Made by a program: the position numbers and the translations under genes | Source of the DNA: an uncultured Prevotella sp. | Lineage (GTDB): Bacteria; Bacteroidota; Bacteroidia; Bacteroidales; Bacteroidaceae | Direction of reading: 5' to 3' | Length of the DNA: 55,112 nt | NCBI GenBank assembly: GCA_946409435.1 | Contig: CAMJWJ010000003.1 | Coordinates: 1-55,112, forward strand | The notes under the pieces: model-generated | Database searches by the model: none | What the model was told of the DNA's origin: nothing | Seen by the model: the letters and a program-made list of their open reading frames with translations, nothing else | Part shown: in pieces, positions 45,401 through 50,505 of the stretch | Layout of the letters: each line of letters starts with the position of its first letter | How positions within the stretch are numbered: the first letter of the stretch is position 1

Positions 45401-46270
45401 GTGCTCACTGCCGAGCAGGCCGCCAAGTTCACCGTAGAGAATGTTTTAGGCGGTACTGACTCTTGGTTGCCTACCGAGCAGACCGTCAGCGTCAGCGCTC
45501 CCACCGTCAGCGTCAGCGGCACCACGCTCAGCTGGACCGACGTAGAGGATGCCCGCTGCTACGTCATCTTCAAGGACGGTCAGTATGTGGCTAACCAGAC
45601 AGCCACCAGCTACGAGATGACTGGCGAAGGTATCTATACCGTTCGCGCAGCCAACCTCTGCGGTGGCCTTGGCGAGGAGTCGTCGGACATTGTTTTCCGC
45701 CGTTCTGTCAAAGCAGGCAACTGGAGCACCGTCGTTGTGCCCTTTGCTGTCAGCGACGTCGAGACGACTTTCGGCACCGGCACAAAGGTCGCCCAGCTGA
45801 CGGGCGTAACGGGTAACACACTGAACTTCAGCAATGTCACCTCGATGAATGCCAACGAGCCTTACATGATTAAGGTTGCAGCCAACTTTGATGCTGCTAT
45901 CCTCAACGGCGCAACCGTCGACTTCGGTACACCAGTCAAGACCGTCGACAACGTTACCTTCCAAGGTGTTTACGAGGGTGGCAACATACCCACAGGAGCC
46001 TTCTTCGTCAGTGGCAACCAGCTCTACCAGGCGCAGGATGCAACCAACACTATCGCTCCCTTCCGTGCCTACTTCACTACGTCTGATCCTGCCAGAGAGC
46101 TGAAGCTTGACTTCGGTGGCGAGACGACAGGAATCAGCGACGCTATGCGTCTAATGAATAATGAACAATTAATAATGAATAATGGCGTCTACGACCTGCA
46201 GGGTCGCCGTGTTGCCCAGCCCACTCGTGGCCTGTACATCGTGAACGGACGTAAGGTATTAGTCCCCTAA
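42413..46270 (+). CDS. multidomain secreted pectinesterase (CE8)
   Basis: RISGYNVSLIGESRDGVVLHG, FYLQDLTVRND, LSNQDTQVTG..., GTVDFICGGG, WNLGRPWQDTPRCYYLNTRM. Confidence 0.9.
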   Translation: MKKLRTILAFMAALCTMWATAATVNIPTADDSDISWNNATLGNCNTEGDGATIGSTHNGSTATFTLSNATQRDYYLTFASGASGLTATVSWTLTDGGSYSQVKTFNISNTGSWTPSEKHGAWFTNVPAGSLTLTMKVESTTGSYAGNYGSLAVRTTDGILTIPGTIDIATGSYTGGARLENDDTNVGWVSNGTSASYTLRVTEAGVYKMTIPMTKYGDGTITTTVTDDETGTQEAAGTWTMVAASNYEDKDVLVEGELTTGQKTLRMDFATSSSFLLNYKSFTMTRVADHFARITSLAVTGQTVTAGDDSDWYCQLPAAMDGNVTFSVGKTNCTVSATAKDASDNAVSVTDNGDGTFTLAPPAPGTNTMVTLTLTPDAGAMSAKTEYTLKLFRIGEISLTGLTIDGINTPSLLTGLNDTQAATFDNVFTAVPEVQATVVDGSVITGTPTVTGTQISYALHAEMAGKTKDYTLTLNGLHIYNKVEGDETVNLKYTSEGNDKDKKIWSNGLYSLSPVGDGWSNSGFKLSKNDNPFILSVPSDVVVKQFIIHEFKDNYTPGSFNAISSDGMTAYVPYKHSFDNVNKYDLVINLEDHQAGKPIQFSFTDGSQITGWYELTVEKQAITTAPVVTDQQVTVVNNHAVVALTFDREMTETTATINGGNVTAEGGSATLYFPIWNLNYSTEYTLTIAAGAAKDTYNNSNAEAINVAVNTAAKPVVEKAAYDYVVSTAAEFTAAVTAVNASNTSASAARKTIFIKNGDYDFGATEQRISGYNVSLIGESRDGVVLHGNRDGISNPVLNLRDRTGFYLQDLTVRNDKNYGQDDKVGVGVAIYGGDKTVMKNVRMLSNQDTQVTGHRAYFENCKIHGTVDFICGGGDNYYWQTDLVLEDRGGDVIAAPSTSASLKWGYVFQQCTVSAMDGATEVTDGSWNLGRPWQDTPRCYYLNTRMNVLPSDNGWASMGNLPTYFYEYGSTDKNGSAIGLSKRGNSPSSTNAYTPVLTAEQAAKFTVENVLGGTDSWLPTEQTVSVSAPTVSVSGTTLSWTDVEDARCYVIFKDGQYVANQTATSYEMTGEGIYTVRAANLCGGLGEESSDIVFRRSVKAGNWSTVVVPFAVSDVETTFGTGTKVAQLTGVTGNTLNFSNVTSMNANEPYMIKVAANFDAAILNGATVDFGTPVKTVDNVTFQGVYEGGNIPTGAFFVSGNQLYQAQDATNTIAPFRAYFTTSDPARELKLDFGGETTGISDAMRLMNNEQLIMNNGVYDLQGRRVAQPTRGLYIVNGRKVLVP
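46123..46192. repeat. 70-bp perfect direct repeat, copy 1 (pectinesterase 3' end)
   Basis: identical to 48568-48637. Confidence 0.97.
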
Positions 46271-46593: not shown

Positions 46594-48606
46594 ATGAAAC
46601 GGATACTACTGTCGACCTTCGTATACGTGCTGCTGGTATCACCCACAGCTGCCCAGTCGGGCAATTACTTCATGCGCACATTCACCGTGCACGACGGAAT
46701 GCCAGCCAACCTCATATCGGGCATGAAGCAGGACAGCCGCGGACTGATGTGGATAGCTACATGGAACGGACTGTGCTGTTACGACGGCTATAAATTCACC
46801 TCTTTCCGGGGTGGAGAACGTGGCACCGACGATGCCCTGTCGTCCAATCGTATAGCCATGATTCAGCCCGACAGCCGTGACAACATTTGGGTGCGTACCT
46901 ACGATGGTGGGCTGTACCTGTTCGACACGCGGCAGTGTCGTTTTACCAATGTCGGCCGATTGGTAGAGCAGCGTTTCGGCCAGCCGCTACAGCCCCGTAA
47001 TATGTATGCCCTGCCGTCAGGACATACATGGATAACCGACGAGCACGGCCGGCTCAATCTGCGTATAGACGACCGTTATCCTACTGACGTGGCACGCATG
47101 GAGGTGATAGGCACGGAGAAGTATCCTATCATCGGCCACTACATTCGTAAGGTGGAGTGTGACGACAAGGGGCGAGAATGGATTGTCACCGACAGCTGCC
47201 GTATGCTGTATGGCACCCGTCAGTGCAGGCCTTATAGCAGGCGTGACACCGCAACGGTCGTAGACAGCGCGCTGGCACGGCGGATGGCAATATGCGGTCT
47301 GCACCGCAGTGACAACGCCAAATACTACGTTGACCGTCAGGGTAACCTTTGGTTCACGTCGTCGCGTGGACTTTCGCTGGTCACGTTTCGTGACAACCAT
47401 TTCAGCGAGTTGCCTGTTGTAGCCGGTCAGCAGACGCGCTCGCTGCTCTGCAGGCGCGACGGCAGCCTCTGGGCAGGCAGCAACGACGGACGCGTCGCTA
47501 TCTATAGCCATGGACAGCTGTCATGGCTTGACGCCACAGGCCACGTCAGCCGCCAGCCGGTACGCTTTGCCGACCGCATCTATGCCCTCTACGAAGACTC
47601 ACGCGGCACGGTATGGATAGGTACCAAGGGGCACGGACTCTACAGCGTCGGTGCAGGGGGCGCCGTCGGTCACTACCTTCCCTCGGCCGACCGCTATTCC
47701 CTGAGCCACGATGCCGTCTATGCCATCGCCGAGGATGCCATGGGGCGCGTATGGATAGGCACCTTTGGCGGCGGGCTGAACATTGCCGTACGGCAGGCTG
47801 ACGGCTCGCTGCGATTCCTGCACGACGGCAACGAGCTGAAGGGTTACCCGAAGAGGGAGTTTCGGAAGATACGCCGGCTGACCTTCGACGGCCACGGCCG
47901 TGCGCTGATCTCCACAACGTCGGGGCTGGTGACGTGTGATGCCCGCCGGCAACCCGCCGACATGGCGTTCTACACCACAGGACACCGACCCGCCGACAGC
48001 CTCTCGCTCTACAGCAGCGACGTGATGCAGACGCTGGTCGGCAGCGACGGCACCGTATACGTTGCCACACTGGGCGGCGGCATACAGCGGATAGCCGACG
48101 ACCAGCTGCTGAAGGGCGAGCTGGCCATGCAGACCGTAGAGCCGCTGAACGCGACGGCCGTCAACGCGCTGGCCATGGCGGAAGACCGTCAGGGCAACGT
48201 GTGGATAGTCCGCGAGAGCGGCATAGAGTGCTACCTGCCCCGACAGCAACAGCTGATGCTGTTTGGCCGCAGCAGTCTGCCCAACGCGATGGAGACCACC
48301 GACGCGATGCCCGTTGCCGACAGCAGTGGGCGACTGTGGGTCGGTACGCTGGGCGGCGTGCTGGCGTTTCGTTCTGCCGCCATCCACAAGAGCCGTTTCC
48401 GTCCCGACATTGTGTTCACCAGTGTGCAGTATCAGGGCGAGCGGACTGTTCACCCGCTGCTCAGCCGTAGCGTGCTGACGGTACTGCCCGACGAGCGTAA
48501 CCTGACGGTCAGCTTTGCTGCCCTGGACTACGAGGACAACAGCATGCTGCAGTATGCCTACAAGACCGACGACAGGAATCAGCGACGCTATGCGTCTAAT
48601 GAATAA
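46594..48606 (+). pseudogene. two-component-regulator propeller / partial Y_Y_Y protein, 5' part of a disrupted regulator
   Basis: propeller repeats (SRGLMWIATWNGLCCYDGYKF, DSRGTVWIGTKGHGLYSV); stops in 70-bp repeat copy 2 just after SFAALDYEDNSMLQYAYKTD. Confidence 0.75.
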
Positions 48607-49102
48607 TGAACAATTAATAATGAATAATGGCGTCTACAAGCTGCAGCAGTCGCTGGCCGACGGCAACAGCCACGACGGCTCGGAGCATGAGCCAGAGGCC
48701 GACGGACGCTGGGCGGCGACGGCAGCGCGTCGGCGCTGGCAGTACACCTACACGCTAAAAGAGCCGGAGATTGTGGATGCCGACGAGGTGATGATGAACC
48801 AGCTGATGCAGTTTATCGAGCAGCGCATCGGCGACGAGGAGCTGAAGGTCGACGAGATGGCCGAGGCCGTCAACATGAGCCGCACGGTGTTCTACGGTAG
48901 GGTACGCAGCCTGGTGGGCATGTCGCCGAGCGACTTCCTGCGTAGTGTGCGCATGCAGCGCGCCACGCAACTGCTGGTGCACAGCCGTATGGCCGTTGCC
49001 GAGGTGGCCTACGCTGTGGGATTCACCGACCCGAAATATTTCAGCAAGTGCTTTAAGAAGGACACTGGCTTGACGCCGTCGGAGTATCGTGCACGAGGAT
49101 AG
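48515..49102 (+). pseudogene. AraC-type HTH output domain, 3' part of the disrupted regulator (different frame)
   Basis: ELKVDEMAEAVNMSRTVFYGRVRSLVGMSPSDFLRSVRMQRATQLL...FTDPKYFSKCFKKDTGLTPSEYRARG. Confidence 0.75.
48568..48637. repeat. 70-bp perfect direct repeat, copy 2 (regulator breakpoint)
   Basis: identical to 46123-46192. Confidence 0.97.
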
Positions 49103-49124: not shown

Positions 49125-50039
49125 CTACCTCCGCATGTTACGCGGGTGGTGCTGTAGTATCTGTTGGCGCAGCGTCGACATGTCGATGTGGGTGTAGATC
49201 TCGGTGGTCGCCGTATCATTAAAAAACAGCAGGGCTTGGATGACACGCAGGTCGGCGCCGCCCTCAAGCAGGGCCGTGGCAAACGAGTGGCGCAGCGTGT
49301 GGGGCGAGATGGTCTTGGCGATACCGGCCTCGACGGCCTGCCGCTTGATCATGATGAGTATCATGACGCGCGTCAGGTGGGCGCCCCGACGGTTCAGGAA
49401 GACGTAGTCCTCCTCGCCGGGCTTGATGGTCATCTGGCTGCGGTCCATGAACCAGTAGTCCAGCTCCTTGATGGCCCGTGGCGAGATGGGCACCAGCCGC
49501 TCCTTCGACCCCTTGCCCAGCACGCGGACGTACTGCTCGTCGAGATAGAGGTCGGAGAGCTTCAGGTTGACCAGCTCGCTGACACGCAGTCCGCAGGAGA
49601 AGAGCACCTCGACGATGGCACGGTTGCGCTGACCCTCCCACTTCGAGAGGTCGATGCTCTGCTCCAGCATGTCTACCTCCTCGACGGACAGCACCTCGGG
49701 CAGGTGCTCGCCCAGCACGGGCGACTCGAGCAGCTCGCTGGGGTCGTCGGTGCGGTAGCCGTCGAGCTGGAGGAAGCGGAAGAAGGAGCGCACGCCGCTC
49801 AGGATGCGACACTGCGAACGGGGACCTACCCCGATGTCGTGCAGCGAGGCGGCAAAGTGCTGCAGGTCCTCCAGCCCGACATCCAGCACGTGCTTGTCTT
49901 CGTCGGCCAGATAGCTGAGCAGCTTCTGCACGTCACGCTGGTAAGCCTCCAGCGTGTTCGGCGAGAAACCACGCTGCAGTTTCAGGTATCTGAGGTAGCT
50001 GCGCGTAATATTTGACGGCGTTTTCTTGTCTGTTTCCAT
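49125..50039 (-). CDS. xerD: site-specific tyrosine recombinase XerD (sequence corrupted by adapter)
   Basis: FSCGLRVSELVNLKLSDL, GKGSKERLVPI, SPHTLRHSFATALLEGGADLRVIQALL...TTEIYTHIDMSTLRQQILQHHPR; start set at METDKK. Confidence 0.9.
   Translation of the reverse strand: METDKKTPSNITRSYLRYLKLQRGFSPNTLEAYQRDVQKLLSYLADEDKHVLDVGLEDLQHFAASLHDIGVGPRSQCRILSGVRSFFRFLQLDGYRTDDPSELLESPVLGEHLPEVLSVEEVDMLEQSIDLSKWEGQRNRAIVEVLFSCGLRVSELVNLKLSDLYLDEQYVRVLGKGSKERLVPISPRAIKELDYWFMDRSQMTIKPGEEDYVFLNRRGAHLTRVMILIMIKRQAVEAGIAKTISPHTLRHSFATALLEGGADLRVIQALLFFNDTATTEIYTHIDMSTLRQQILQHHPRNMRR
49192..49220 (-). other. Illumina P5 adapter sequence embedded in xerD
   Basis: minus strand AATGATACGGCGACCACCGAGATCTACAC, 29/29 identical to P5, preceded by T6. 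Confidence 0.95.
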
Positions 50040-50085: not shown

Positions 50086-50505
50086 ATGAAAATAATTATC
50101 ATGAATGGTCCCAATCTGAACCTGCTGGGCGTCCGCGAACCGGGCATCTACGGGTCGTCGTCGTTTGAACAGTACCTGCCTACCCTGCAGGCACGCTACC
50201 CCGACGTGGAGATAGACTACTACCAAAGCAATGTCGAGGGGGAACTGATCAACAAGATGCAGGAGGTGGGCTTTGCCGTCGACGGCATCGTGCTCAACGC
50301 CGGTGCCTACACGCACACCAGCATAGCACTGCACGACTGCATTCGCTCGCTGAAGGCTCCCGTCGTCGAGGTACACATCTCCAACGTCCACCAGCGCGAG
50401 GAGTTCCGCCACCACAGCATGATATCGGCGGCCTGCCTTGGCGTCATCTGCGGATTCGGCCTCGACTCGTATCGGTTGGCTGTGGAGGCTATTATTAACC
50501 AATAG
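50086..50505 (+). CDS. aroQ: type II 3-dehydroquinate dehydratase
   Basis: MNGPNLNLLGVREPGIYG, NAGAYTHTSIALHDCI, EVHISNVHQREEFRHHS. Confidence 0.95.
   Translation: MKIIIMNGPNLNLLGVREPGIYGSSSFEQYLPTLQARYPDVEIDYYQSNVEGELINKMQEVGFAVDGIVLNAGAYTHTSIALHDCIRSLKAPVVEVHISNVHQREEFRHHSMISAACLGVICGFGLDSYRLAVEAIINQ

Follow-up and report, generated by a model that had tools for sequence, protein, structure and literature searches.

In-register replacement of a short stretch of a Prevotella xerD gene, probably by the Illumina flow-cell P5 oligonucleotide

The whole stretch of DNA analysed here (the window) is a single Prevotella contig of 55112 bases, covered from end to end. Its minus strand encodes a XerD recombinase whose gene contains a synthetic sequencing oligonucleotide, at a distance of 5.9 kb from the closer contig end. 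The features of the locus are as follows.

49125–50039, minus strand: xerD, site-specific tyrosine recombinase, 304 aa (matches to TIGR02225, PF00589, PF02899 and E. coli XerD, PDB 1a0p).
49192–49220, minus strand: exact 29-nt sequence match to the Illumina P5 oligo, AATGATACGGCGACCACCGAGATCTACAC, inside xerD.
49221–49226, minus strand: six T directly 5' of P5, interpreted as a piece of the linker of 10 T that the surface-bound P5 oligo carries.
49192–49208, minus strand: last 17 nt of P5, near-identical to native xerD DNA coding for TTEIYT and the presumed priming site, judged by the match score of relatives.
49209–49226, minus strand: the 18 nt truly overwritten (T6 plus P5 bases 1–12), delimited by a drop in identity; relatives encode GHESIG-type residues here.
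50086–50505, plus strand: aroQ, class II dehydroquinase, divergent neighbour of xerD, with adjacency conserved in relatives.

The xerD reading frame is uninterrupted across the P5 site, and an alternative in-frame ATG upstream would extend the product to 340 aa, reaching 50147. The protein contains an N-terminal SAM-like domain (PF02899) and an integrase catalytic domain (PF00589), and it aligns with E. coli XerD (1a0p; E = 1.5e-54) ungapped at the P5 site. It covers positions 2–290 of the 290 in TIGR02225 (E = 1.3e-94). Apart from the 18 overwritten nt the whole gene resembles this family, as does the order of genes towards aroQ; the differences are the motif described below and a score of 316.8 bits, below the curated cut-off of 329.6 bits. 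The low score is probably due to the overwritten stretch.

Elsewhere in the window, a hybrid two-component-like gene (46594–49102, plus strand) looks truncated: its Reg_prop propeller part (46594–48606) is followed by a 79-bp repeat and then only by an AraC helix-turn-helix (48515–49102), and the kinase and receiver domains are missing. The 79-bp stretch (48568–48646) is 97% identical to 46123–46201, within the 3' end of the pectinesterase gene. The likely explanation is that sequence was deleted here or that the assembly collapsed across the repeat.

Read on the minus strand, the order at the site is ...GCCCTGCTG-TTTTTT-AATGATACGGCGACCACCGAGATCTACAC-CCACATC..., so that native xerD, and not a read-1 or Nextera adapter, comes after P5. 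The 29-mer has no mismatches and a single exact match in the window, and it was absent from all of 100 dinucleotide-preserving shuffles. It is also single-copy across the whole genome (2.76 Mb, 190 contigs), where P7, TruSeq and Nextera sequences gave nothing above chance level (best E = 0.38). A published surface oligo is written with ten T before the P5 sequence (PMC11123353); in Prevotella the run stops at six. An earlier note, made from the sequence, had reported an exact P5 on the minus strand at this position in xerD, preceded by poly-T from the surface-bound oligo, and both observations are borne out here.

In the Prevotella gene the motif reads LLFFNDTATTEIYTH. The TT.IYTH tyrosine motif is present as TTEIYTH, but LGH and its four next residues read FFNDTA: G-H has become F-F, and the histidine is lost. 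This histidine is a member of the catalytic set in tyrosine recombinases, and a real protein with FF in place of GH would therefore be expected to be inactive. Aligning xerD to close relatives, as the earlier note had proposed, recovered LGH....TT[EQ]IYTH in all 21 relatives of the same genus whose site was complete (L[LM]GH, then TTEIYTH, or TTQIYTH in one); only the Prevotella window differs (LFFNDTATTEIYTH). The change of LLGH to LLFF that the note had described thus holds against both the relatives and 1a0p. In one genome of the same genus (G011), xerD-like matches fall on two contigs (C81:13713–14240 and C15:12968–13450) with overlapping query ranges (128–303 and 12–172); these may be two partial recombinase genes or two different ones.

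The number of residues at the motif is equal in Prevotella and the 21 relatives, so the length of the gene is exactly conserved. We aligned the nucleotide sequences of relatives across the site without gaps. Identity to Prevotella was 0.76–0.84 across the 240 nt upstream of the overwritten stretch, fell to 0.17–0.22 (about chance) over just the 18 nt made up of T6 and P5 bases 1–12, returned to 0.76–0.94 at P5 bases 13–29, and was 0.54–0.75 downstream of P5. On the other side of the gene, aroQ adjoins xerD in many relatives, and the closest relative has a methyltransferase-aroQ-xerD order identical to that of the Prevotella contig. Because the length is conserved, chance identity is confined to 18 nt and the genes towards aroQ stand in their usual order, the sequence appears to have been overwritten in register. 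Compared with its relatives, the gene seems to hold about 18 wrong bases (49209–49226). The conserved place of aroQ beside xerD likewise indicates that the aroQ-side flank is normal and correctly assembled, and P5 gives no reason here for the lowered trust in the adjacent assembly that the earlier note had advised.

The DNA of relatives at this site suggests why P5 might have landed here. Among 25 relatives, the DNA opposite the last 17 nt of P5 matched at a mean of 14.24 of 17 positions (best, 16), against a background for this 17-mer of 4.29 matches (sd 1.88), in which 13 or more was never reached in 20000 draws. Over the first 12 nt of P5 the same relatives matched at 3.52 of 12 positions, approximately chance. 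The note's remark that native TTEIYTH DNA resembles the P5 3' end is thereby given a number. Judged from these comparisons, a likeness restricted to the 3' end reads as the signature of priming by that end, because a priming event needs exactly such similarity. None of the relatives examined had the full 17-nt match, nor was a native xerD identical to the P5 3' end over all 17 nt found in any of 299 genomes of the phylum; a perfect native match is therefore either unnecessary or rare.

The Prevotella site is not alone. A scan of genome_contigs found P5 at no fewer than 119 loci. Among the matches listed, at least 116 copies are followed by read-1 sequence (TruSeq or Nextera) or stop with the contig, and for at least 115 of these a contig end is no more than 200 nt away. 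Also among the matches listed, at least eight copies continue directly into non-adapter sequence, at least seven of them internal. Within 399 genomes of the same genus there was one further P5 with no adapter behind it (in leuB), together with one ordinary contig-end copy. The two scans combined give at least nine further P5 copies without read-1 adapter, six in coding genes, and each genome with a copy of this kind contains exactly one P5. T-runs before P5 in genome_contigs were most commonly 10–12 long among the matches listed; in the non-adapter cases the run is 6 in Prevotella, 10–11 in three others, T10 followed by AT at locus L069 and absent at L066.

Other P5 occurrences are of different kinds. 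P5 was also found in one plasmid and in 22 phage records. At the four sites inspected (TAC1, HMD-P3, Pd_22F and the plasmid) it is followed by read-1 or Nextera sequence, and we rejected them as members of the internal class and count them as ordinary. At locus L126 an internal P5, 1153 nt from the locus start, continues into full TruSeq read-1 and represents an internal adapter join of another type. P5 was not found in E. coli complete genomes.

These results bear on whether the Prevotella sequence could be genuine, either as a xerD variant or as an inserted or engineered chromosomal sequence. Its open reading frame and its continued recognition as a tyrosine recombinase are what such a gene would show. 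However, the sequence spells out a T-tailed synthetic oligo, unrelated genes and organisms carry the same string, and it removes a histidine kept by all compared relatives. We give genuine biology a negligible probability and reject it on the recurrence of the T-tailed oligo in unrelated genes. The earlier note's judgement that this is a technical artefact and no new recombinase stands, given the exact oligo and the LGH present in 21 of 21 relatives.

Six of the further copies fall in coding genes whose length at the site could be compared with a homologue.

L143: alphaproteobacterial-type xerD in a 3.1-Mb genome (G713), T10-P5 at the same motif; 21 residues, 21 in relatives.
L149: permease, P5 on the opposite strand; 29 residues against 29 in a relative with 95% protein identity.
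L155: leuB of a same-genus genome (G087:C176:6473–6501), T10-P5 in register; 30 residues, 30 in five relatives.
L069: aminotransferase, ungapped at the site against PDB 3ezs.
L125: arginine decarboxylase, aligned to PDB 6q6i with no gap at the site.
L066: TauE-family exporter, 121 codons in one alignment piece, no length difference from a plasmid homologue.

Thus the exact length is kept in 7 of 7 coding cases, Prevotella xerD included. The comparisons for L125 and L066 rest on the PDB alignment and the plasmid homologue, respectively, because relatives of their genomes contained no homologue of the decarboxylase or of the TauE protein. Two of the seven cases are xerD, from unrelated lineages: the L143 gene reads LRSIQVLFFFNDTATTEIYTH where its relatives have LR.IQ.LLGH....TTEIYTH, with ACCGAGATCTACAC as the native sequence in two of them (L185 and L187). 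At L149 the DNA ahead of T10 is the same as in the 95%-identical relative. The length comparison leaves out two more P5 copies that lack a read-1 adapter, L113 (apparently non-coding) and L118 (88 nt from a contig end).

The most telling of the recurrent cases is L137, where a five-N scaffold gap lies between two copies of the same ABC-permease stretch, the native copy, CTCGAGATCTACACCGACAACC, on one side and a TTTTTT-P5 copy on the other. The two copies have CGAGATCTACACCGACAACC in common, P5 runs into the same CGACAACC, and the P5 3' end sits exactly on native CGAGATCTACAC.

The earlier note had called the Prevotella site a misjoin, with the adapter fused into xerD, which a contaminating read could have seeded; in such a misjoin two contigs would be joined through an adapter read. 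Up to 17 nt are common to P5 and native xerD, P5 at contig ends is common, and L137, with N beside P5, is itself a scaffold-type join, all of which would suit that account. Random joins, however, would preserve even the reading frame only one time in three, and exact length, unexpected from a misjoin, was kept in every coding case; moreover, the 5' and 3' parts of xerD and the order on the aroQ side agree with relatives. A misjoin is accordingly improbable here, and "overwritten in register" describes the site better than "fused".

We therefore favour, at a probability of about 0.8, an ordinary xerD with the flow-cell P5 oligo written over a short stretch of it, through mispriming on the insert and a mixed cluster. 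The native xerD DNA for TTEIYTH resembles the P5 3' end (ACCACCGAGATCTACAC). During cluster amplification, densely grafted T-tailed P5 would anneal inside the genomic insert and be extended, yielding truncated T10-P5-xerD strands that lack the read-1 primer site. One cluster would then hold both truncated and full-length strands. Read 2 would pass through xerD, after which the truncated strands would contribute bases of P5 and its T-tail; where these strands end, native bases would reappear at the same cycle, and length would be kept. Such reads, free of the usual adapter strings, could escape trimmers and be assembled. The T-run points to a surface-grafted oligo, and flow-cell mispriming is therefore the simplest source. 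From these features we infer that priming took place at the flow-cell surface, and that the cluster, not later consensus software, gave rise to the overlay.

The reason for the in-register return of native sequence is less certain, since either a mixed cluster or a substitution-only corrector or polisher would do. Merging of two sequence populations in one cluster has been described as giving mixed reads with errors at some positions only (BMC Genomics 2011, PMC3163567). The merging described there is of neighbouring clusters, whereas we propose that a single insert was involved, through mispriming by the surface oligo. Alternatively, the contamination could be the same and the overwrite the work of software: a substitution-only read corrector, bubble collapse or a polisher, given reads ending in P5' plus poly-A or over-abundant adapter k-mers, might have replaced the native bases. 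Substitution-only correction also predicts the length preserved in all seven coding cases, and the variable, partial T-run also speaks for it. But the contig names come from different assemblers (NODE at L069, k127 at L066), and mispriming would still be required, because reads joining P5 to native DNA are needed in the first place. We consider a software overwrite possible but doubtful.

Illumina adapter assembled into public microbial genomes despite read trimming has been reported mainly at contig ends (Moeller et al. 2024, PMC11536531). The Prevotella case is alike in being a synthetic Illumina adapter in a public genome. Unlike that contamination, its P5 is internal and lacks read-1 sequence; there is a single copy per genome, and it takes the place of coding sequence with the length unchanged. 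A limited literature search found no paper on an internal, length-preserving P5 class or on its translated peptide ('FFNDTATTEIYT', or 'VDLGGRRIIKK' from the other strand), although the peptide may be known informally. We lean towards a distinct and apparently undescribed class of artefact, in which surface P5 misprimes at genomic sites resembling its 3' end and leaves single substitutions that preserve length and reading frame, with xerD and its TTEIYTH codons as a natural hotspot. Since such substitutions disturb neither length nor frame and come with no read-1 adapter, routine trimming and completeness checks would miss this class. A screen is easy: P5 or its translation within an open reading frame, with no adjoining read-1 adapter.

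The finding holds no new biology for Prevotella or for XerD; it is a recurrent quality-control problem of modest interest. The artefact peptide could be mistaken for a natural variant, and its presence can drop a protein below a curated family cut-off. The case serves as a warning that an otherwise clean gene can lose a catalytic residue in silico.
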